64,000 nt of DNA from Aeoliella mucimassa. Lineage in GTDB: Bacteria > Planctomycetota > Planctomycetia > Pirellulales > Lacipirellulaceae. Below, piece by piece: positions 1-14,365 of this stretch. A program made the position numbers and the translations under genes. The stretch's first letter is position 1; each line of letters opens with the position of its first letter. Location of the stretch: contig NZ_CP036278.1 of the NCBI RefSeq assembly GCF_007748035.1, forward strand, positions 3,348,001-3,412,000. The letters are read 5' to 3'. Under the pieces are notes generated by a model that was not told the origin of the DNA, ran no database searches, and saw only the letters and a list, made by a program, of their open reading frames with translations.

Positions 1-1049
1 CAGCTAGCACGCTCAGGCGCCCGCGCGGCGCAAGTGGTGCGTCGCTGCCAGATATTATTGAAATCGGACTCGGGATGCACCGACGAAGAGATCGCCGAGC
101 ATGTGGGCTGCACGACGCGCAACGTCCGAGCCGTCCGAAAGCGGTTCTGCGAAGAGGGCGTCCAGCGGGCGGTGTACGATGCGCCTCGCTCGGGCCGCCC
201 CCCAGAGTTCACCAAGCGGCAGCAGCAACAGGTAATCGCCCTGGCGTGCAGCGAGCCGCCCGAGGGACGGGCTCGCTGGACGCTGGAATTGTTGTGCGAG
301 CACGCGGTGAAGGAAGGCTTCGTCGATTCGCTCAGCGTGACGGAGGTCTCGCTGTGGCTCAAGGAACACGACCTGAAGCCGTGGCGAAAAAAACTTGGTG
401 CGTGCCCAAGCTGAACGACGAGTTCTGTGAGCGGATGGAGGACGTCCTCGAGCAGTACGAGAAGCCGCTCGACCCGAACGAGCCGGTCGTCTGCCTCGAC
501 GAGCAGCCCTATCAGAGGGTCGACGACGCGCGGCCGCCCGAGCCCGCGGCACCCGGCAAGATCGCGAAGCAGGACTACGAGTACCGCCGCTGCGGAACCT
601 GCAGCGTGTTCGTGGCGGTCGAGCCGAAGGCGGGCAAGCGATTCGTTCAGGCCAAGCGTCACCGCAAGCGAGCCGACTTCGCCCGGTTCGTCCGCGACCT
701 CTTGAAGCGCTATCCCGACGCAGAGCGGGTTCATCTGGTGATGGACAACCTCAACACGCACAACGAGAAGTCGTTGATCGAAACCTTTGGCGAGGAGGCG
801 GCTCGGCCAATGCTGGAGCGGATTGTGTGGCATTTTACCCCCAAGCATGCCAGTTGGCTCAACATGGCCGAGATCGAAATCTCGGCCATACAGCGACAAT
901 GCCTGGGACGTCGGTTGGCTTCGCTCGACAAGGTTCAAAGCGAACTCTCCCACTGTTCACGCGACCGCAATCGGAAGAAAATCAAAATCAATTGGACCTT
1001 CCATCGAAAAGACGCCAAACGCGTCTTCCCTGAACTCTATAGGAAATGA
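1..1049 (+). CDS. IS630-family transposase, 5' end outside the window, two frames joined by -1 frameshift
   Basis: This is a DDE transposase of the IS630 family. Frame 1 is open from the left edge and encodes the helix-turn-helix half, with IAEHVGCTTRNVRAVRKRF as recognition region, and stops at 414. The catalytic half continues in frame 3 to a TGA at 1047-1049 and carries the three expected acidic sites: VCLDEQ, LVMDNLNTH and ASWLNMAEIE. The two frames meet at a run of seven A (387-393). Read in the zero frame this is A AAA AAA, a classical -1 slippery heptamer, so a single fused protein is likely made by programmed frameshifting, as known for many IS630 elements. The left terminal repeat lies outside the window. 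The right end should lie shortly after the stop, probably at one of the TA dinucleotides at 1064-1068, but I cannot verify it without the other end. Confidence 0.85.
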   Translation, partial: ASTLRRPRGASGASLPDIIEIGLGMHRRRDRRACGLHDAQRPSRPKAVLRRGRPAGGVRCASLGPPPRVHQAAAATGNRPGVQRAARGTGSLDAGIVVRARGEGRLRRFAQRDGGLAVAQGTRPEAVAKKTWCVPKLNDEFCERMEDVLEQYEKPLDPNEPVVCLDEQPYQRVDDARPPEPAAPGKIAKQDYEYRRCGTCSVFVAVEPKAGKRFVQAKRHRKRADFARFVRDLLKRYPDAERVHLVMDNLNTHNEKSLIETFGEEAARPMLERIVWHFTPKHASWLNMAEIEISAIQRQCLGRRLASLDKVQSELSHCSRDRNRKKIKINWTFHRKDAKRVFPELYRK

Positions 1050-5016: not shown

Positions 5017-6594
5017 CTAGCTAACGTCGCTCCACGCGAGACCAAATCGCGCGAGGTACTTTCGCAACCGATCCGCGTCGTTCGGCTTCGCTTTCATTGC
5101 CCGCGATACCGCGAAAAGCTTCCGACCAGCGTCCGACTGCGATTTCGACTCCCTGCATACCCGAACCACTTCGGCCAGTCCTGCCCGATCGAATCGATCA
5201 AGCTTCTCCAAATCGATTAATCCTTCGAGCACCGCTTGGTCCACGAACTTCTCACGGGGCGCGCCCCATGAGTGACGCAGCCGTTCGATTTCTTCCTCCA
5301 CTAGCTCCACCGTGATTCGCCCTCCGGCCGCCAAAGTTGCCATGCGAGTAACGGCCGCATTCAGATCGCGAAAATTCGCCCGCCAGGCCGCTTCGCCCGA
5401 CTGAGCAAACGCCAGGAACTTCTCGCGGGCTTCTTTATTCATGCGGACGATCGAGCCAGTCGAGGCGGCGAACTGCTGTAGTTCGTAGTCGAGATTCGGT
5501 GGAATGTCTTCTCGGCGGTCAGCCAGCCCAGGCAGGACGAACGTCCACAAGTTGATGCGGGCGAGCAAGTCCTCGCGGAACCTTCCCTCAGCGACGTCTG
5601 CCAGCAGATCGCGATTCGTGCCAGCAATCAGCTGAAAGTCGCTTTGCTGCTCCTTGTCCGCTCCTACGGGAAAGAATCGTTTCTCTTCGATCGCCCGCAA
5701 GAGCATCGCTTGTTCGTCGAGCCCCAGTTCGCCGATTTCGTCCAAGAACAACATGCCGCTGCTCGCTAATCGCAACAATCCCTCGCGCGAGTTCGTCGCT
5801 CCAGTGAAGGCTCCCTTTGCGTGCCCAAACAACGTTGACATCGATTGATCGCCCCGCAAGGTTGCGCAATTCACTTCGACGAACGGGCCATGAAGTTGTC
5901 GCCGCTGCTTCTTGAGATCATAGATCCGCCGAGCAAGTTGACTCTTCCCCGCCCCCGTTGGGCCGGTGATCAACAATGGCGACTGACTGTGGATAGCTAC
6001 CTTCTCAATCCGTTCAATCAGCGCATTGAACGACGCATTCTTAGTATCGATGCCTGACTTAAGGAATGAGACGCCTTGCTGCTTTTCCAGGGCAAACCGA
6101 GCGGCCAATTGATCGTATCGCGAGAGATCGAGATCGATGAAGCGAATCGAGCCCGCTCCAACAGCCTTACGCTTAGGAGGGGAAGCCTGAAGCAACGTGC
6201 CTGGAACGTGACGCGACTCCGCTAGCAAGAACAGACAGATCTGCTGCACGTGACTGCCGGTCGTGATATTCAGCACGTACTCTTCTTCATCCGGCTGAAA
6301 CGGGTACGCACCGAAGAAGCCGTGCAGCTTGCCATACACCTCTTCGAGGTCCCAAGGATCACGAAACTCCAACTCGTGAAGGTTCACCTTGGTCTCGGGC
6401 GACACGCTGCCGATGTCGTCGGTCACGAGCTGCGCCATGGTGCGATAGTTCGGCTCGTAGAGCAACTCAAATCGGTCGATCAGGTAGTCTTCGTGCTGAC
6501 ATATCGCCACCGTAGGACGCCACCGCAGCCATCGGCTATCCTCTCGCCCCGCATCGAGCCGAGCCCCCAGTAATCCAAAAACGATCCGTTTCAT
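5017..6594 (-). CDS. rtcR: RtcR, sigma-54-dependent activator of the RNA-repair operon
   Basis: The 525-residue protein has the N-terminal RtcR domain (about 1-180, starting MKRIVFGLLGARLDAG), which in this family is a CARF-type ligand sensor. A sigma-54 AAA+ domain follows with Walker A GPTGAGKS (about 209-216), the sigma-54 contact loop GAFTGA (about 260) and Walker B LFLDEIGEL. The C-terminal tail holds a helix-turn-helix-like segment. RtcR proteins of enterobacteria switch on rtcBA in response to damaged tRNA ends. The gene is divergent from rsr, whose promoter has a sigma-54 signature, so the same control is expected here. The start is the ATG with the canonical MKRIVFG opening. The convergent PEP-CTERM pseudogene ends 27 bp from its stop. 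Confidence 0.95.
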   Translation of the reverse strand: MKRIVFGLLGARLDAGREDSRWLRWRPTVAICQHEDYLIDRFELLYEPNYRTMAQLVTDDIGSVSPETKVNLHELEFRDPWDLEEVYGKLHGFFGAYPFQPDEEEYVLNITTGSHVQQICLFLLAESRHVPGTLLQASPPKRKAVGAGSIRFIDLDLSRYDQLAARFALEKQQGVSFLKSGIDTKNASFNALIERIEKVAIHSQSPLLITGPTGAGKSQLARRIYDLKKQRRQLHGPFVEVNCATLRGDQSMSTLFGHAKGAFTGATNSREGLLRLASSGMLFLDEIGELGLDEQAMLLRAIEEKRFFPVGADKEQQSDFQLIAGTNRDLLADVAEGRFREDLLARINLWTFVLPGLADRREDIPPNLDYELQQFAASTGSIVRMNKEAREKFLAFAQSGEAAWRANFRDLNAAVTRMATLAAGGRITVELVEEEIERLRHSWGAPREKFVDQAVLEGLIDLEKLDRFDRAGLAEVVRVCRESKSQSDAGRKLFAVSRAMKAKPNDADRLRKYLARFGLAWSDVS

Positions 6595-6644: not shown

Positions 6645-6754
6645 ACTACTGGTGGTTTCATTGGACAAGCTGGAAACAGCACAGATCACAAGAACACGTC
6701 TAACCCTTTACCCAGCAATCACTTACGACGTGTTCTGAAAATCGCAACCTCGTT

Positions 6755-6769
6755 TGGCACGCGACATGC
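6755..6769 (+). promoter_or_regulatory. Sigma-54 (-24/-12) promoter of the rsr-Y RNA-rtcBA operon
   Basis: TGGCACGCGACATGC has the invariant GG (6756-6757) and GC (6768-6769) exactly ten bases apart, matching TGGCACG-N4-TTGC except for one T. Transcription would begin near 6781, about 50 nt before the rsr ATG. The regulator next door is a sigma-54 activator, which makes the assignment coherent. Confidence 0.8.
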
Positions 6770-6831: not shown

Positions 6832-8409
6832 ATGGCTAACAAGAACCTATTCCAATCGATCCGCGGTACTTACACCGAAAAAACCAACACTCACAACAAA
6901 GCAGGCGGACAGGCTTATCGTCGGTCCGACAAGCAGGCACTCGGCCAACTGGCCACGACCGGCTGCTTGGGAGCGACCTTCTACGCTGGAGCGCAGGAGC
7001 AGCTCGATAAGGTGCTAAAACTCTCCGAAAAGGTCGAACCCGAATTCCTCGCCCGCTTGGCCGTATACGCCCGCACCGTGGGACACATGAAAGACATGCC
7101 AGCCCTATTGTGCGCAGTGCTATCGGTTCGCTCTCCAGGCTTACTGGCAGAAGTGTTCGATCGCGTGATCGACTCCCCAAAGATGATGCGCAACTTCGTA
7201 CAAATCATGCGGTCGGGTGTGGTTGGGCGTAAGAGCCTGGGCACTTTGCCAAAGCGGCTTGTGCTCGATTGGCTTGCCGCCCGAAGTGACGATCAGCTGT
7301 TCGTTGGTTCGGTCGGTGCCGATCCTTCGCTAGCCGACGTCTTGCGAATGGTCCACCCTAAACCACAAACCGCTTCGCGTGAGGCCCTTTACGGTTACCT
7401 TATCGGACGCGAGTACAGACGTGATGCATTGCCACAACTAGTGCAGCAATACGAGACCTTTAAGCGAAACACGAATCCCGGAAAGGTGATGCTTCCCGAG
7501 GTTCCTTTCCAAATGCTTACTTCGCTGCCACTTACTCCGAAGGACTGGAAGCAGATTGCCCGCCGGGCTTCCTGGCAGATGACACGGATGAACTTAAACA
7601 CATTCCTCCGTCATGGAGTACTTGAGGACCGCGAAATGGTGCACTTGATTGCGAATCGGCTCCGCAACCCACGATTGATCGAAAAGGCGCGAGTCTTTCC
7701 GTATCAACTCCTTGTGGCGTACTTGAACGTCAACCGCTCGGTTCCGATCGAGATCCAAGAAGCCTTGCAGGATGCTATGGAACTGGCGATTAAGAACGCC
7801 CCGCGCGTTGCCGGAAAAGTGCATGTGTGCCCCGACGTGTCGGGGTCGATGCACTCGCCGGTTACCGGATATCGCCAGGGTTCGTCGACCGCGGTGCGAT
7901 GCTTGGATGTTGCCGCCCTGGTGGCAGCAACCATTCTTCGCCAAAACCGCTCGGCGGAAGTGCTGCCCTTCAAGGAAGACATCGTGAACATTCGCATGAA
8001 TGGGCGCGATTCGGTGATGACAAATGCTGAGCGGATTGCCTCGGTTTCTCCAGGGGGAACCAACTGCAGTGCACCGCTACGCGAATTGAATCGCCGAAAA
8101 GCGAAGGGCGATTTGGTGATTTTCGTTTCCGACAATGAGTCGTGGATCGATTCGCCCGGATATGGACGTTTCGGTGGAAGCCGAACCGAAACCATGAAGC
8201 AATGGTCCTTGTTCAAGTCGCGAAACCGAAAAGCCCGTTTGATTTGCATTGACCTTCAACCGTCGGTCACCATGCAGGCAAACGAGCAAGCCGACATCGT
8301 GAACGTCGGTGGCTTCAGCGACCAGGTGTTCAAGCTCATCGCCGACGTGGCGAGCGGAAAACACTCGGTGGACCACTGGATTCAACAAATCGAGTCGATT
8401 CGACTGTAA
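6832..8409 (+). CDS. rsr: Rsr, bacterial Ro60 (TROVE-domain RNA-binding protein)
   Basis: The 525-residue protein is a Ro60 orthologue. Residues about 15-320 form the TROVE helical-repeat ring that binds misfolded or single-stranded RNA ends and Y RNA (FLARLAVYARTVGHMKDMP, MTRMNLNTFLRHG). Residues about 325-510 are a von Willebrand A domain with a complete MIDAS motif DVSGSM (D335). The start at 6832 (MANKNLFQSIRG) is chosen because it sits in a GAGAG context and matches the family start; the open frame extends 26 codons further but runs into the sigma-54 promoter. In Salmonella rsr, Y RNAs and rtcBA form one operon, and the same order is seen here. Rsr is expected to be tethered by the two Y RNAs encoded just downstream. 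Confidence 0.95.
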   Translation: MANKNLFQSIRGTYTEKTNTHNKAGGQAYRRSDKQALGQLATTGCLGATFYAGAQEQLDKVLKLSEKVEPEFLARLAVYARTVGHMKDMPALLCAVLSVRSPGLLAEVFDRVIDSPKMMRNFVQIMRSGVVGRKSLGTLPKRLVLDWLAARSDDQLFVGSVGADPSLADVLRMVHPKPQTASREALYGYLIGREYRRDALPQLVQQYETFKRNTNPGKVMLPEVPFQMLTSLPLTPKDWKQIARRASWQMTRMNLNTFLRHGVLEDREMVHLIANRLRNPRLIEKARVFPYQLLVAYLNVNRSVPIEIQEALQDAMELAIKNAPRVAGKVHVCPDVSGSMHSPVTGYRQGSSTAVRCLDVAALVAATILRQNRSAEVLPFKEDIVNIRMNGRDSVMTNAERIASVSPGGTNCSAPLRELNRRKAKGDLVIFVSDNESWIDSPGYGRFGGSRTETMKQWSLFKSRNRKARLICIDLQPSVTMQANEQADIVNVGGFSDQVFKLIADVASGKHSVDHWIQQIESIRL

Positions 8410-8425
8410 ACGACATGGCCGCTTC

Positions 8426-8454
8426 GGTGGCGGGAGCCTCCCGCTTCCGCCACC
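8426..8454 (+). other. Strong hairpin just after rsr
   Basis: GGTGGCGG at 8426-8433 pairs with CCGCCACC at 8447-8454, and an alternative inner pairing GCGGGAG/CTCCCGC also exists. There is no T-run, so it is more likely a stability or processing element than an intrinsic terminator; downstream genes belong to the same operon. Confidence 0.5.
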
Positions 8455-8578
8455 CACCCTTTCGCTCTAACCAACTTTGGCCGAATGCTGCTGGGACTAC
8501 ATTAACCCATGTAACATGTCTCAACAAAACCTTGTCGGCCTCTTTTAACTTCTAAGATCTAAGATCCCTTGACCGAAA

Positions 8579-8612
8579 TGAGTGATTTTGAGCCGTACCT
8601 CACAATCACTCA
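8579..8612 (+). other. Nested hairpin upstream of the first Y RNA
   Basis: TGAGTGATT (8579-8587) pairs perfectly with AATCACTCA (8604-8612), and inside the loop TGAG pairs with CTCA. It starts 58 bp before the first Y RNA stem. It could guide processing of the RNA from the operon transcript. Only the symmetry is seen. Confidence 0.4.
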
Positions 8613-8636
8613 AGAATCACCCTACGAAAAGAGACA

Positions 8637-8790
8637 ACGCAACGAATGCCGATGGAACTACATGGTTCCGAAACCCGTGGTCGTGGGTTCGAGTCCCACC
8701 GGCCCCACTCGCTAACGCAAAATGCGTACAATGGGGCCGTAGCTCAGTAGGTAGAGCACGTAAACGTTTCATCACTCCTTGTCGTTGCGT
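8637..8790 (+). ncRNA. YrlA-type Y RNA 1: permuted tRNA-like domain on a Ro-binding stem
   Basis: The order is a tRNA 3' half followed by a 5' half. T stem GTGGG/CCCAC encloses loop TTCGAGT (8683-8699). The acceptor strand CGGCCCC (8700-8706) pairs with GGGGCCG (8733-8739) across a 26-nt linker that itself holds a hairpin (ACGCA/TGCGT). The D arm is GCTC-AGTAGGTA-GAGC (8742-8757). The anticodon side is replaced by a long closing stem: GATGGAAC (8651-8658) with GTTTCATC (8766-8773, one G-U), an internal loop ATGCC versus ACTCCTTG, then ACGCAACGA (8637-8645) with TCGTTGCGT (8782-8790). YrlA RNAs of other bacteria have this permuted tRNA mimic fused to a Rsr-binding stem, and the position between rsr and rtcB is the same as in Salmonella. 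Exact ends are inferred from pairing. Confidence 0.85.
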
Positions 8791-8814
8791 CCTTAATCCA
8801 TACCAACATCACAG

Positions 8815-8938
8815 GATAGCAGATGCCAAAGGAACTACACTCTGAAGGCTGCGGGTTCGAATCCCGCCGATCAGCTCACCGCTGGTCGTAGCTCAACGGA
8901 TAGAGCACCAGAACGTTTCTTAACCACTTGCTGCTATC
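8815..8938 (+). ncRNA. YrlA-type Y RNA 2: second permuted tRNA-like RNA
   Basis: T stem GCGGG/CCCGC encloses TTCGAAT (8851-8867). Acceptor strand CGATCAGC (8868-8875) pairs with GCTGGTCG (8881-8888, one G-U) across a 5-nt loop TCACC. The D arm is GCTC-AACGGATA-GAGC (8891-8906). TCTG (8841-8844) pairs with CAGA (8909-8912), a remnant of an anticodon stem. The closing stem is AAGGAAC (8829-8835) with GTTTCTT (8915-8921), then GATAGCAG (8815-8822) with CTGCTATC (8931-8938). The block ATGCC-N3-GGAACTACA and the block ACGTTTC are shared with RNA 1, while the outer stems differ in sequence but keep pairing, which is covariation. The 3' end lies 29 nt before the rtcB start codon. Confidence 0.87.
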
Positions 8939-8967
8939 ATGTCTTGCCAGAAGAGACAGAGGCTCCG

Positions 8968-10464
8968 ATGACGACAACCACTCAATCAAAATACCAGATT
9001 CTTCCTCGCGGAGAAGCGACTGCGATCCTGCCTACCGGGTCCAAGCACAGCCCGATCACCGTGATCGGCACCGAGCCAATCCGCTCGTCGTTTGATGAGC
9101 TCTGCTTGCAGCAGGCGATCAATTCTCGCACCGCGCCTGGCGTGACCAACTTGGTACTTAATCCCGATGCTCACGGTGGATACGGGGCACCTGTGGGGTG
9201 CGTGCTAGTATCGCCAACCCACGTGTACCCGGGCCCGGTCGGTGTGGATATCAAGTGCTCAATGAGCTTGCTCCAAACGAGCCTGCCAGCCGACGCAGTG
9301 ATCGATAAGCAAACGCGACGGGCGTTGATCGATGCGATCTGCGAACGCACCCCAACCGGTGCTGGTAAGGGACAACGGAACGCTCCCAAGTCGCGCCATG
9401 TGGAAGAAGCTCTCGGAAAGCGAGTGCTGACCGAAGGAGCCTCGCCTGGGGTTTGTCGCGAGCTCGGTATCCCTGTGGAGTGGGCAAGTCGCTGCGAAGA
9501 CTCTTTCCATGTAGGGCACGACGACTCGACCGGTGCGCTCGCATTGCGACTAGAGAAGTTGCTTCCCCATATCTATCAGTTCGATGCGAAGATCTCGCAA
9601 CTCGGCTCGTACGGCGGGGGTAACCACTTTGGAGAATGTGAAGCCGTTGAGGTCGGCGACGACCAACGGTCGCGCGACATCGCGAAGACCTTTGGTTTGA
9701 TCGACGGTGGCATCGCCTTCCTGTCGCATTGCGGTTCGCGAGGCATTGGGCATTCGCTAGCCACGGGCCAATTCAAGTCGCTCCAAGCCAAGTTCGAGCA
9801 GTGGGATATCCCGCTCCCGGGAAAGGATCGCGAATTGGTTTACGCCCCGCTCGGCACGCCTGAAGCCAATGCTTACCTCGACGACATGGCTTTGGGCGCC
9901 AACTTTGCGACGGTCAATCACTTGCTGATCAATGCGCTAGTGCTGGAAGCCTTTCAGGAAGTGTTGCCTGGGACTACTGGCGAGCTGGTGTATTTCATTA
10001 GCCATAACATTGCTCGCAAGGAGATTGTCGATAACCGCCCTGCGTGGGTGCATCGCAAAGGGGCGACGCGCGCGTATCCTGCAGGGCACTTCGCGCTCAA
10101 GGGGACTCCATTTGCCGAAACGGGACATCCCATCTTGCTACCGGGCAATCCGCAAGCAGGGTCGGCGGTGATGGTTGCCGAGGCAGGCGCAGAAGCAAGT
10201 TGCTACAGTGTGAACCACGGAGCAGGACGTCAACTCGGACGCAAGGCAGCCAAGCGCGAACTTGACCAGCGGCAAGTCGATCAATCGTTTGCCGATGCCG
10301 ACATCTTGTCGAATTGCCGTCAATACCCAATCGACGAAGCCCCTGCGGCTTACAAGGACTTCGACGAAGTGTTGCGATCGGTCAAATCGGCTGGGCTGGC
10401 AAGCGAAGTCGCGCGATTGAAGGCTCGATTCGTGATCAAGGATGGCGACAAAGCCGACGATTAA
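8968..10464 (+). CDS. rtcB: RtcB, RNA-splicing ligase (3'-phosphate/2',3'-cyclic phosphate to 5'-OH)
   Basis: The 498-residue protein is a Mn2+/GTP-dependent RNA ligase. Signatures seen are NPDAHGGYGAPVGCV near residue 70, GVDIKCSM, QLGSYGGGNHF and the guanylated histidine H417 in VNHGAGRQLG. All metal-binding motifs are present, so it should be active. The ATG at 8968 follows AGAGACAGAGG and is preferred over an in-frame ATG eight codons upstream, which lies in a poor context next to Y RNA 2. It works with RtcA on broken RNAs; Y RNA-tethered Rsr may deliver substrates. No archease gene is present in the window. A long hairpin separates it from rtcA. Confidence 0.96.
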   Translation: MTTTTQSKYQILPRGEATAILPTGSKHSPITVIGTEPIRSSFDELCLQQAINSRTAPGVTNLVLNPDAHGGYGAPVGCVLVSPTHVYPGPVGVDIKCSMSLLQTSLPADAVIDKQTRRALIDAICERTPTGAGKGQRNAPKSRHVEEALGKRVLTEGASPGVCRELGIPVEWASRCEDSFHVGHDDSTGALALRLEKLLPHIYQFDAKISQLGSYGGGNHFGECEAVEVGDDQRSRDIAKTFGLIDGGIAFLSHCGSRGIGHSLATGQFKSLQAKFEQWDIPLPGKDRELVYAPLGTPEANAYLDDMALGANFATVNHLLINALVLEAFQEVLPGTTGELVYFISHNIARKEIVDNRPAWVHRKGATRAYPAGHFALKGTPFAETGHPILLPGNPQAGSAVMVAEAGAEASCYSVNHGAGRQLGRKAAKRELDQRQVDQSFADADILSNCRQYPIDEAPAAYKDFDEVLRSVKSAGLASEVARLKARFVIKDGDKADD

Positions 10465-10472
10465 CTTGGACT

Positions 10473-10512
10473 CTTTGAACTCCCAGCAGCAGATACTGCA
10501 GGGAGTTCAAAG
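10473..10512 (+). other. Perfect 12-bp intercistronic hairpin between rtcB and rtcA
   Basis: CTTTGAACTCCC (10473-10484) pairs perfectly with GGGAGTTCAAAG (10501-10512); inside the 16-nt loop GCAG pairs with CTGC. It is not followed by a T-run, so it is unlikely to terminate transcription alone. It may stabilise the upstream mRNA or mark a cleavage point that separates rtcB and rtcA. Confidence 0.7.
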
Positions 10513-10557
10513 TAGGTGCATGAAGCATCGCTGGCTAACAACAAGGAGAAACACACA

Positions 10558-11598
10558 TTGCCAAATACAGCGATTGATATCGATGGATCGCAAGGCGAGG
10601 GAGGAGGTCAGATACTCCGCTCGTCGCTTACGCTATCGATCGTAACAGGGCGGCCCGTGCATCTGACGAACATTCGCGCGGGCCGCGACAAGCCGGGACT
10701 CATGCGCCAGCATTTGACTGCGGTGCGGGCGGCTGCCGAAGTTGCTCAAGCAACTGTCGATGGAGACGACATCAAGTCGCAAACGCTGCACTTTGCTCCA
10801 ACCGCCATCGCGTCGGGACAGTACCACTTTGCCATCGGCACTGCCGGAAGCGGTACGCTTGTATTGCAGACCGTGTTGCCAGCCTTGCTACTCGCCAAAG
10901 GCGATTCCGAAATCATTATCGAAGGGGGCACCCACAACCAGTGGGCCCCGCCTTTCGACTTTCTGCAGCAAGCTTACTTCCCACTGCTACGACGAATGGG
11001 AGCGGATATTTCAGTTGCTTTTCAGCGTTACGGATTCTATCCAGCCGGTGGCGGGCGATTCGAGGTCTCTATCGTGCCGCCAGCTGAACAGTTGCAAGGG
11101 CTAACACTTCTTGATCGCGGTGAAGTGCATCATCGGGCGGTCACTGCGGTGATCGCGAACTTGTCGCGAAGTATCGCCCAACGCGAACTTCAAGCAGCGG
11201 CCGAAAAACTCAACTGGCCGGGTGATTGCTATCATCTTAGCGAGGTCCGTGCTGCTGGCCCTGGCAACATTGTGATCATTGAACTGCACTGCGAGCATGT
11301 TCGCGAGGTCTTTACCGGCTTCGGACGGATCGGCGCCAAAGCCGAAGGAGTCGCTTTAGAAGCGGTAAGCGCATTGCGCGATTACCAAGCGGCTGACGTT
11401 CCGGTGGGCCCCTACTTGGCGGACCAGTTGATACTGCCGCTTAGCCTGGCGGCCTGGCAATCTGGTACCCAGAGTCAATTTCGCACAATGGCTTTAACCC
11501 GGCACTCGACCACTCACATTGATATCGTGCGACGCTTCCTAGAGATTCCTATCGATGTTGACCAGCAGGAATCTGCTATGACAGTTACCATTGGTTGA
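10558..11598 (+). CDS. rtcA: RtcA, RNA 3'-terminal phosphate cyclase
   Basis: The 346-residue product converts RNA 3'-phosphates to 2',3'-cyclic phosphates with ATP, feeding the RtcB pathway. It opens with the family signature IDGSQGEGGGQILRSSLTL and ends with the adenylated histidine motif RHSTTHIDIV (H316 by the chosen start). The insert domain region near residues 150-260 is complete. I choose a TTG start at 10558 because AAGGAG (10543-10548) sits 9 nt before it and the protein then begins MPNTAIDIDGS; the ATG at 10516 has no comparable site. It is the last gene of the sigma-54 operon and converges with the FecR-like gene after 34 bp. Confidence 0.93.
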   Translation: MPNTAIDIDGSQGEGGGQILRSSLTLSIVTGRPVHLTNIRAGRDKPGLMRQHLTAVRAAAEVAQATVDGDDIKSQTLHFAPTAIASGQYHFAIGTAGSGTLVLQTVLPALLLAKGDSEIIIEGGTHNQWAPPFDFLQQAYFPLLRRMGADISVAFQRYGFYPAGGGRFEVSIVPPAEQLQGLTLLDRGEVHHRAVTAVIANLSRSIAQRELQAAAEKLNWPGDCYHLSEVRAAGPGNIVIIELHCEHVREVFTGFGRIGAKAEGVALEAVSALRDYQAADVPVGPYLADQLILPLSLAAWQSGTQSQFRTMALTRHSTTHIDIVRRFLEIPIDVDQQESAMTVTIG

Positions 11599-11632
11599 TT
11601 CGGGACATGCAGCTAACTACCGACAGCTTATC

Positions 11633-14365
11633 TCAGTGCGACTGGCGAAGTCCGCTTACATGCTGATTGATTTTAACTAATGATTCAAGCGTTTGTGCGA
11701 GCACAAACTCGTCGTAGGTACACGTATCGGAACTTTTCCCACTCGAAGACTCAAGGCGCAAACGATCGAACTTCAGATTCGGAATTGCCTGCACCAACAA
11801 GGGTGGCGTACTGGAAAGCTCTTCTAACTCGGTATCCAACCATACCGAAACCACCGCCGCACTATCGTCGCCAAACGCCATTCGCACGGTCCAGAAATGC
11901 GATTGATTATCGATCGCAAGCGGCTGAACACCAACAAAAGCGCGATCGGTATCGAACAAATACATAGCCTCGTTACCTGGCGGGTATAGACGCACCCCCA
12001 AACCCGAAGCCCCGGAAGGTTGCCCAAAGAACACAGGCTCTTCGTCGTTTCGCTTGTCGCCATACATAAGCGACACCCCAGTCCAATCAAAACGCTGATC
12101 ACTACTGAGCGACATTTGCGACCACCACGACATCCACACCTCTGAATCATCTTTACCAACGTCCCCAGAGCTATTCAATAAGCCCGCCCTTGCAAGCCGT
12201 GAACGCTCCGACACGTCCAGGTTCATGAAAACGGTTGTATTCTGCCCAATCACAAGCGACTCCGAAGCTCGTTGCGATCGCTTTATCGGCAGTAAGTCGC
12301 TCCCAAACCGGAGCGGCGATATTGCTCTAGGCGTTTCGAAACCAACTGCATAGGCTTCGCCATAAGACTCAGCATGAAATCCTTGGTAAGCCAACAACCC
12401 TTCTATTCTCAATAGCTCATAGAACGCAACCTTATCGGCGGCTTCCGCCGACCCGTGCTGCTGCTCCACACGCAACGCAACTTCGTCGGGACGGATAAAC
12501 TCTCGGTCGTGCATTTGCAAATCAACGGTTTTTGGCAGTTGCCCACCTTGCTCGACTACTGCTTGATAATCAGCTTCCATCTCAATGGGGGAGATCTTCG
12601 GATCAGCCAAATCGAAAGGTTGCGAACTTAATTCAATCGCACCTTCGTAAACCGCGACGCTGGTTGTCTGCAGATCACCTACCGACACCCCAAACTCGGT
12701 GCCAGTGTCCAACACGCGTGCAGTGGGGGTCTCAACAATGAGTGCATTGGCTTGCCCACTGTTGAGTCCGACTAACTTGCCATGCTTGAGGTCTACTACC
12801 CCTTGATCATCCAGGTAAAGCGACACCGGCGCCTCGAGCACCCATTCGCTACCCGAAGGGGTAATCAATTCCACAATTCCCTCGGTTAGCTCGATCGGTT
12901 CGTTTGCATACACCGAATTGCCAACGCTGTAGTCAGTATCGCTCCGCCCGACGACTCCCAGCGACGTCTTCACCGTGGCTACAGCAATGCGGACGGGAAC
13001 CTCAGGGAAAGAAGTTGCCTCGCGAATATCAGCCCCGGTAAGTGGATTGCTCGGAACCTCTCGCTCCTGCTGTGCTAGTACAGGAGTATCTGGAGAAACC
13101 GCATTGTCTCTCTGCAGCATGAGATATCCCATGCTGGCGGCAATAAGCACGGCAGCTGCAATTGCCATGCCCCAAGCAGTAGCGAATCTTGAGCGCCTAG
13201 GGGCATGCGCGACCGAAGGCTCCGATGGAACACTTGGCGAAGTCTCTTCGAGATACAACACCATGTCTGTGAGTACATGATGAAACGCCTCGTCGCGACG
13301 AGTGCTAGAATCTTCCAGCAACACGTTCAGCGAAAGTCGCCGATAGAGCGCTTCATGGGCTACCGCCATGGCGAGCAAGCAACGGCCATTTTCCTCGCCT
13401 TCGGAACACCAGCTATCCAGATCCTGCAGAAACTGAGCAGATGCAGATTGGCGACGTCCACCCTCAGGTTGCAATCCGAAACTCTCGGAAGCATCCACAA
13501 AGCCATAGAACAGGTTGAAACCTTGCATGACTGTCGGGCTGGCGTGTTGTTTGACTGAGGTTGCACATGCATTCCACAGTTTCAACCGACATTCAGCAAG
13601 CTGCGATAGCACCTTCTTTAGAGGCAAACTCAACAATCGCGAAATCTCTCCAGGAGACAATTCCAGCAGATACCTCATGCACAGCACACGCAGTGCACTA
13701 GCAGGTACATGTCGCGGAACAAAGTCTTCAACGGATTCGTAAAGTGCTACGACATCGACTGCCTCACATTCACGCAGAGATCGTTTGAGAATCGCTTCGA
13801 ACTGCTGAACGCTACGATCACGCTCGGCATCTACTCCCTGCCATACAGCAAACTGTTCAACAGCGAGATTCAATGCCAAGCTACAAAAGCGATCGGGGGA
13901 GTACTCCGTTAATGGCTCATCCATCAAACCAGAACACACGGAATCAACGGCAGCCTCTGCGTCGCTCGGCAGGCGGAGCCCCATGAACAAGCAAGCACGC
14001 AGTGCGATATACACCTGCAACCACAGTTGTGCATGTAGTTCGCTGTGCTCGACTAGCTCGAACACCTGGTAGAAACTTACGTCTTCGCGTATTCCTAGCT
14101 CGCGAATAACAATGGATGCAGCAGGAATGGTGGATCCATTCACATCATGGGCCAAAGCTGGTGCAATATGCGATTGCGACGAGTATCGCCATCTCAGTTC
14201 CGAATCGATTTGCGTTAGCTCAATAAAATACTGGCGTGCATCCCTATTGTTGAGCAACAATTCGCTCAGCTTGTGTTTCGCTTCGCCATGAAGCGTTCCT
14301 AGCTGCCAGGCTTCAACCAGCCGCGGCAATTCGGGCATCGTATGAAATATCTCGTCGGGAGACAT
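11633..14365 (-). CDS. Very large FecR-type transmembrane protein with sigma-region-4-like segment
   Basis: The 910-residue protein begins with the planctomycete FecR-like cytoplasmic opening (LVEAWQLGTLHGEAKHKLSEL, then DARQYFIELTQIDSELRWRY). Unusually about 330 further cytoplasmic residues follow, including a sigma-70 region-4-like stretch (ALRVLCMRYLLELSPGEI, about 224-241, then SRLLSLPLKKVLSQLAECRL). A second anti-sigma-like region follows at about 305-375, one membrane helix at about 397-416, a periplasmic FecR domain at about 450-590 (PTARVLDTGTEFGVSV) and a C-terminal region that may be LamG-like. It lies 28 bp downstream of the ECF sigma gene, so it probably senses an envelope signal and holds that sigma factor. 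The target regulon is unknown. The sigma-like part could be a relic of a gene fusion. Confidence 0.75.
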   Translation of the reverse strand: MSPDEIFHTMPELPRLVEAWQLGTLHGEAKHKLSELLLNNRDARQYFIELTQIDSELRWRYSSQSHIAPALAHDVNGSTIPAASIVIRELGIREDVSFYQVFELVEHSELHAQLWLQVYIALRACLFMGLRLPSDAEAAVDSVCSGLMDEPLTEYSPDRFCSLALNLAVEQFAVWQGVDAERDRSVQQFEAILKRSLRECEAVDVVALYESVEDFVPRHVPASALRVLCMRYLLELSPGEISRLLSLPLKKVLSQLAECRLKLWNACATSVKQHASPTVMQGFNLFYGFVDASESFGLQPEGGRRQSASAQFLQDLDSWCSEGEENGRCLLAMAVAHEALYRRLSLNVLLEDSSTRRDEAFHHVLTDMVLYLEETSPSVPSEPSVAHAPRRSRFATAWGMAIAAAVLIAASMGYLMLQRDNAVSPDTPVLAQQEREVPSNPLTGADIREATSFPEVPVRIAVATVKTSLGVVGRSDTDYSVGNSVYANEPIELTEGIVELITPSGSEWVLEAPVSLYLDDQGVVDLKHGKLVGLNSGQANALIVETPTARVLDTGTEFGVSVGDLQTTSVAVYEGAIELSSQPFDLADPKISPIEMEADYQAVVEQGGQLPKTVDLQMHDREFIRPDEVALRVEQQHGSAEAADKVAFYELLRIEGLLAYQGFHAESYGEAYAVGFETPRAISPLRFGSDLLPIKRSQRASESLVIGQNTTVFMNLDVSERSRLARAGLLNSSGDVGKDDSEVWMSWWSQMSLSSDQRFDWTGVSLMYGDKRNDEEPVFFGQPSGASGLGVRLYPPGNEAMYLFDTDRAFVGVQPLAIDNQSHFWTVRMAFGDDSAAVVSVWLDTELEELSSTPPLLVQAIPNLKFDRLRLESSSGKSSDTCTYDEFVLAQTLESLVKINQHVSGLRQSH

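Follow-up and report, generated by a model that had tools for sequence, protein, structure and literature searches.

Two RNAs encoded between the gene for a Ro60 orthologue and the gene for an RNA ligase in the planctomycete Aeoliella mucimassa appear to be assembled like tRNAs whose halves have changed places, which raises the question of what these RNAs are and what the tRNA-like half contributes to them. A rule that connects the end of this half with the host would bear on what it does in bacterial Y RNAs generally. The locus is contained in a stretch of 64,000 nucleotides, which is referred to here as the window.

Gene order and small RNAs of the locus

The window encodes, in this order, a divergent rtcR gene (5017-6594, minus strand) and, all on the plus strand, rsr (6832-8409), three small RNA genes, rtcB (8968-10464) and rtcA (10516-11598), as delineated by open reading frames and Pfam matches. 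The rtcR product is a sigma54-dependent activator with an RtcR sensor domain (Pfam RtcR, 3.3e-75; Sigma54_activat, 4.8e-50), the Ro60 orthologue Rsr matches vWA_Ro60 (1.3e-14) and TROVE (2e-08), the RNA ligase RtcB matches RtcB (9.9e-103), and the RNA 3'-phosphate cyclase RtcA matches RTC (2.6e-77); the Pfam evidence places rtcR, rtcB and rtcA together with rsr, the composition of an RNA-repair operon. Inspection by eye revealed, some 63 nt before the rsr ATG, a near-consensus candidate for a -24/-12-like site of the sigma54 type on the plus strand (TTGGCACG-N4-ATGC, 6754-6769), which is absent from the listing of a pattern scan with one mismatch allowed. Two ORFs elsewhere in the window (75-1049 and 1252-2637) we take to be transposase-like. 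Matches to rsr at E <= 1e-20 are found in 40 of the 392 planctomycete genomes. The gene order in the window equals the one described for Salmonella, rsr-yrlB-yrlA-rtcB-rtcA (PMC9879122), and the divergent rtcR is likewise shared with the rsr-yrlBA-rtcBA RNA-repair operon; the window differs from that operon by the presence of two full YrlAs and by the planctomycete host.

The sequence-only reading of the window had proposed two Y RNAs at 8637-8938, each built as a circularly permuted tRNA, with the 3' half preceding the 5' half, and recommended a search with the YrlA model; this search bore out the proposal. RNA 1 (8637-8790, plus strand) scores 73.5 bits against RF02553 over 8639-8791, above the gathering score of 69, and RNA 2 (8815-8938, plus strand) scores 67.6 bits over 8816-8940, just below it, with an E-value of 2.3e-15 in a 601-base search; in both cases, the cmscan alignment covers the full YrlA model. 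RNA 1 and RNA 2 are the only YrlA matches at E 1e-3 in the whole host genome among the 150 of 592 candidates that were scored. Both lie between rtcB and rsr, the latter being the Ro60 orthologue gene expected beside a YrlA. The bacterial Y RNA 6CU1 has been described as circularly permuted relative to tRNAs (PMC11472068). RNA 1 and RNA 2 are, on sequence grounds, YrlA-type Y RNAs and, the permuted-tRNA architecture being already published, members of a known family; they share with RF02553, Salmonella YrlA and PDB 6CU1 the Y stem, the permuted T arm, acceptor and D arm, and the location between rsr and rtcB.

The elements of both RNAs follow each other in the order outer stem, inner Y stem, T arm (5 bp), 3' strand of the acceptor (7 bp), linker, 5' strand of the acceptor, D arm (4 bp) and return strands. 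In RNA 1, the 5' strand of the inner Y stem (8651-8658) pairs with 8766-8773, according to sequence and fold, and module parsing places the T arm GTGGG-TTCGAGT-CCCAC at 8683-8699, the acceptor-like 3' strand CGGCCCC at 8700-8706 (partner GGGGCCG, 8733-8739) and the D arm GCTC-AGTAGGTA-GAGC at 8742-8757, all on the plus strand. The corresponding elements of RNA 2, also on the plus strand, are the T arm at 8851-8867, the acceptor stem at 8868-8888 (parsing and fold) and the D arm at 8891-8906; with 7 bp, its acceptor leaves the linker CTCACCG and, with an eighth C-G pair, the loop TCACC. Both RNAs contain a TTCGA T loop, GG in the D loop and the Y stem motif for predicted Rsr binding, and both fold more stably than most dinucleotide shuffles (MFE z of -3.2 for RNA 1 and -2.9 for RNA 2, with 1 and 4 equally stable shuffles out of 300, respectively). 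The outer stems (8637-8645/8782-8790 in RNA 1 and 8815-8822/8931-8938 in RNA 2) are unlike between the paralogues and yet pair in each, just as the sequence-only reading had it. Its estimate of about 20 additional nt in the stem of RNA 1 was too high, the stretch from TACA to the T arm being 20 nt compared to 11 nt in RNA 2.

That reading also counted only two Y RNAs at this locus, overlooking a third one without a T arm (8473-8544, plus strand; outer stem 8479-8484/8535-8540). This RNA contains the Y motif, has an MFE z of -3.0 (8478-8545) and resembles YrlB (RF02565) in its position directly after rsr and in the motif series CGAATGC...ACTACA...TTGTCG; however, it scores only 19.9 bits, far under the RF02565 gathering score of 97, and is therefore denoted YrlB-like only. 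Relatives encode a counterpart after rsr, for example, Adhaeretor mobilis (locus L132, 7652), and a lenient heuristic, some entries of which are doubtful, finds a short Y RNA without a T arm after rsr in 35 of 51 loci. The numbers of Y RNAs vary among loci: L137 and L159 each contain four YrlA-type modules with the Y motif and differing acceptor-loop types, and in the Salmonella-type locus L190, an apparent further Y RNA, with a T arm and an acceptor-like hairpin and no D arm, follows YrlA by eye. The possibility that the YrlA pairs of an operon consist of one open and one capped RNA was considered and abandoned, given that 15 of 27 pairs were of this kind compared to the expected 13.4.

Homologues, acceptor linkers and host tRNA ends

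Permuted tRNA modules were parsed from 98 sources, namely, the window, 39 planctomycete regions and 58 rsr loci. The parser requires at least six of seven acceptor pairs and a linker of at least 3 nt, and missed the Salmonella-type YrlA of L190; it yielded 380 raw and 125 strict modules, of which 15 without the Y motif were discarded, including that of L136, with a 44-nt linker starting with A-C-T, leaving 110 from 75 genomes. The T loop of the modules reads TTCRA, GG is present in the D loop, and most of them have the TA-GCTC/GAGC arrangement of a tRNA; of the tRNA elements, only the anticodon arm is absent. The sequence-only reading had inferred covariation of the closing stems from the two paralogues, and the homologues agree with it, own partners pairing better than foreign ones in a set for which neither stem had played a part in the search criteria. 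For the inner stem, the best own match is 8/8 in 78 of the 110 homologues compared to 193 of 2086 combinations with the 5' strand from another locus; the outer stem pairs 7/7 in 76 of the 110 with its own partner compared to 263 of 2152 with a partner from another locus. Four to six standard pair types occur at each acceptor position, although the acceptor pairing is not independent evidence because it was used as a search criterion. A tandem of tRNAs, in which the 3' half of one and the 5' half of the next are misread as a YrlA, is ruled out for the window RNAs because their acceptor strands are self-complementary and the Y motif is present. Such misreadings are a genuine hazard: at E 1e-3, matches to RF02553 are found in 6 of 14 control genomes as well as in 98 of the 392 planctomycete genomes, and no more than 5 of the 392 exceed the cut-off.

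The acceptor linker of RNA 1 (8707-8732, plus strand) is 26 nt long, starts with A73-C74-T75 and forms its own 5-bp hairpin (8715-8727; z of -2.7 against mononucleotide shuffles); its length and the presence of a hairpin accord with the sequence-only reading. The Salmonella-type YrlA of L190 has, by eye, a 6-bp acceptor and a 3-nt loop, as opposed to the 7 bp and the hairpin linker of RNA 1, which differs from YrlA (RF02553) also by its host-tRNA-like 3' flank. The long hairpin linker, unfamiliar for a YrlA in the earlier reading, is indeed unusual; it is not unique, given that 12 of the 57 planctomycete RNAs, though none of the 53 others, have linkers of at least 19 nt. The 12 long linkers have a mean z of -1.6, with 9 of them at -1.3 or below and three devoid of a fold signal (mononucleotide shuffles), and their hairpins are, by eye, mutually unrelated in sequence. 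Nine RNAs, including RNA 1, combine the acceptor GGGGCCG or GGGGCTG with a linker of at least 17 nt; in this set, position 73 is A in 9/9, position 74 is a pyrimidine in 8/9 and position 75 is T in 9/9, so that A-Y-T is kept in 8/9 RNAs with linkers of 19-69 nt. The next three positions and the last six show no comparable agreement, and position -1 shows no RNase P signature and no conservation among the RNA 1 relatives.

To compare these ends with those of the host tRNA genes, tRNA-type T arms followed by CCA were counted in 92 genomes, 75 of which enter the comparison; up to 9 counts defined a genome as CCA-less and at least 19 as CCA-encoding, with one genome in between. A shifted control, with the pattern one base longer, gave 0-12 matches per genome. 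The first 25 genomes were chosen partly with knowledge of the YrlA ends, and the next 67 are most of the remaining ones. In the set of 110 YrlAs, 20 of the 44 CCA-encoding genomes have a YrlA with N73-CCA, as opposed to none of the 30 CCA-less ones (p = 6e-6). CCA immediately follows N73 in 21 of the 110 RNAs and in 13 of 100 distinct linkers (shuffle mean 1.7, maximum 7), and 13 of the 17 CCA occurrences in all distinct linkers fall exactly at this position. An A-Y-T start is found in 25 of 46 distinct linkers from CCA-less hosts (shuffle mean 2.1, maximum 7) and in 6 of 53 from CCA hosts (shuffle mean 1.9, maximum 8). Within Planctomycetota alone, N73-CCA is present in 6 of 15 CCA-encoding compared to 0 of 26 CCA-less genomes (p = 0.001), and A-Y-T in 22 of 26 CCA-less compared to 2 of 15 CCA-encoding genomes (p = 1e-5). 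These statistics are weakened because the genomes are related: when collapsed to 15 planctomycete families, the A-Y-T link retains p = 0.007 and the CCA link p = 0.10, and 12 of the 20 genomes with N73-CCA belong to a single group of related alphaproteobacteria. Outside Planctomycetota, with just 4 CCA-less genomes, no significant link was detected (p = 0.12 for CCA and 1.0 for A-Y-T). Many YrlAs lack the respective signature, N-Y-T being absent in 18 of 47 from CCA-less hosts and CCA in 41 of 62 from CCA hosts.

In the host of the window, T75 is found in all 29 parsed tRNA genes and position 74 is C or T; the tRNA-Trp gene, which does encode CCA, is outside these 29, having been missed because the parser requires a perfect T stem. 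In five other CCA-less hosts, Y74-T75 is present in 32 of 35 parsed tRNAs. The A-C-T-C start of the RNA 1 linker fits the host-type end, and RNA 2 does not; the sequence-only reading contains no mention of this likeness to the ends of host tRNA genes. Position 74 itself tends to match the host, with C in 9 of 11 A-Y-T YrlAs from C-rich hosts and in 0 of 5 from the others (p = 0.005), in a hand tally over 14 hosts that, for G299 and G406, draws on the rows listed and leaves out G385, G283, G266, G407 and G408, which had too few rows or none. Taken together, the tendency of the closed YrlA acceptor end to follow the 3' ends of host tRNA genes is moderately supported. The literature covered by our search, partial in content and with the main YrlA papers outside its scope, mentions neither CCA nor RNase Z nor tRNA-gene flanks in connection with Y RNAs.

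Roles considered for the tRNA-like half

With the family, architecture, gene order, stem pairing and the correlation between YrlA end and host end established, these RNAs are probably the YrlA-type and YrlB-like RNAs of an RNA-repair operon, with YrlAs that tether or gate Ro60/Rsr and whose acceptor end is perhaps seen by tRNA 3'-end enzymes. The genes rsr-yrlB-yrlA1-yrlA2-rtcB-rtcA may be expressed as a single stress-induced operon under the activator RtcR, which would yield two YrlAs and the YrlB-like RNA; RtcR is described as activated by tRNA fragments (PMC7790460), and YrlA as modified by DusA and TruB and bound by Rsr and PNPase (PMC8394870). In other bacteria, the YrlA/Ro60 particle encoded with RtcB/RtcA and RtcR is produced upon tRNA cleavage. 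By analogy with these other species, from which RtcR control, Rsr binding and PNPase tethering are taken, the Y stem with its GGAACTACA/GTTTC block would bind Rsr/Ro60, whereas the distal part, predicted to adopt a tRNA fold that lacks the anticodon arm (T arm, 7-bp acceptor closed by the linker, D arm), would offer its tRNA face to tRNA-recognizing enzymes and, in so doing, gate Rsr or tether it to a nuclease, for example, PNPase, during the mending of cleaved tRNAs by RtcA and RtcB. The acceptor end of RNA 1 may, in addition, be seen by tRNA 3'-end enzymes because A73-C74-T75 resembles the 3' flank of the host tRNA genes. A resemblance due to common ancestry alone would be expected to fade as the linkers of relatives turn over; the persistence of A-Y-T in 8/9 RNAs despite this turnover favors recognition by such enzymes, through binding or cutting. 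If the acceptor end obeys the host's rules for tRNA ends, it is probably subject to the same selection as tRNA ends, and the rule provides a cheap, direct way of finding out whether Y RNAs are acted on by tRNA enzymes in living cells, as well as a second handle on the origin of YrlA from tRNA.

Recognition could go as far as cleavage. RNA 1, with its open linker, would then be cut by RNase Z after A73, followed by CCA addition and perhaps by an RNase P cut before G1, and would function as two pieces that the acceptor and Y stems keep together, with a 3' end of the tRNA type. We regard this as rather unlikely for RNA 1, even though the near-invariant start of linkers that are otherwise without evident conservation, the dependence of the end type on host CCA status, the tendency of position 74 to match the host and the presence of RNase Z-like genes in the host genome, all below the curated cut-off, are in its favor. 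The tight closed loops of many YrlAs, including RNA 2, the lack of a sequence preference on the 5' side and the linker hairpins, which suggest a kept structure as opposed to a discarded spacer, argue against it. The general form of this idea, that open-type YrlAs are substrates of the host tRNA 3'-end machinery, with the permuted acceptor opened by RNase Z in CCA-less hosts or trimmed to the encoded CCA in CCA hosts, and become two-piece Y RNAs whose tRNA end is mature and may carry a CCA tail, is slightly more doubtful still. If it held, a two-piece Y RNA made beside an RNA ligase could sense tRNA end maturation or be regulated by it.

Under a different explanation, which we consider somewhat unlikely, the tRNA-like ends are relics: YrlA modules would derive from local tRNA genes or exchange sequence with them, and the flank would have been carried along without a function. 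This would account for the restriction of CCA to CCA hosts, and the best match among 27 tRNAs of the same genome gives 24/27 and 24/28 for the two halves of RNA 1; however, tRNAs of five other genomes do almost as well (23/27 and 23/28 for the best of 35), so that nothing points to a recent copy of a host tRNA, and that version of the explanation is unsupported. The conservation of A-Y-T among RNA 1 relatives, which share acceptor strands while the remainder of the linker has turned over, also speaks against functionless relics. The RNAs might instead act as decoys that occupy tRNA-cleaving nucleases by presenting the tRNA body without the anticodon loop that these enzymes cut. Salmonella YrlA has been suggested to be a competitive inhibitor (PMC7790460), and the window RNAs likewise lack an anticodon arm and are encoded next to RNA-repair genes, but nothing specific in the window sequence backs such a role, which appears improbable. 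In circularly permuted tRNA genes, the 3' half precedes the 5' half, with an intervening linker. The window RNAs share the order of the halves, the linker and the 7-bp acceptor with such genes, which give rise to functional tRNAs by splicing in algae and some archaea, but the Y stem motif occupies the place of the missing anticodon arm and ARAGORN detects no tRNA in the entire window; for want of the anticodon arm, this origin was rejected as exceedingly improbable.

tRNA genes around other rsr loci

In 13 loci, mostly from Rhodobacteraceae genera (L161, L164, L165, L167-L170, L172, L173, L176, L180, L182 and L183), one to three tRNA genes, mostly for Pro, Asn and Gln, are located just after the YrlAs, as though replacement tRNAs were supplied by the RNA-repair operon itself; in L170, for example, they occupy 8404-8757, and an RtcB-type ORF, identified by eye, follows at 9969-12032. 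Large tRNA arrays surround rsr/YrlA in several other loci, namely, L092 (28 tRNAs), L123 (19), L124 (15), L129 (15), L140 (18), L151 (19), L154 (13) and L179 (18), comparable to the Anabaena trn operon, which is reported to be co-regulated with rtcB (PMC10272220). Altogether, at least three tRNAs are found somewhere in 21 of the 98 loci scanned, a count that includes L131, which is not an rsr locus. The latter region of the host genome (G000:C1:2476000-2495000), about 0.9 Mb from rsr, encompasses a small cluster of tRNA genes with low scores (L131:6652-8113).
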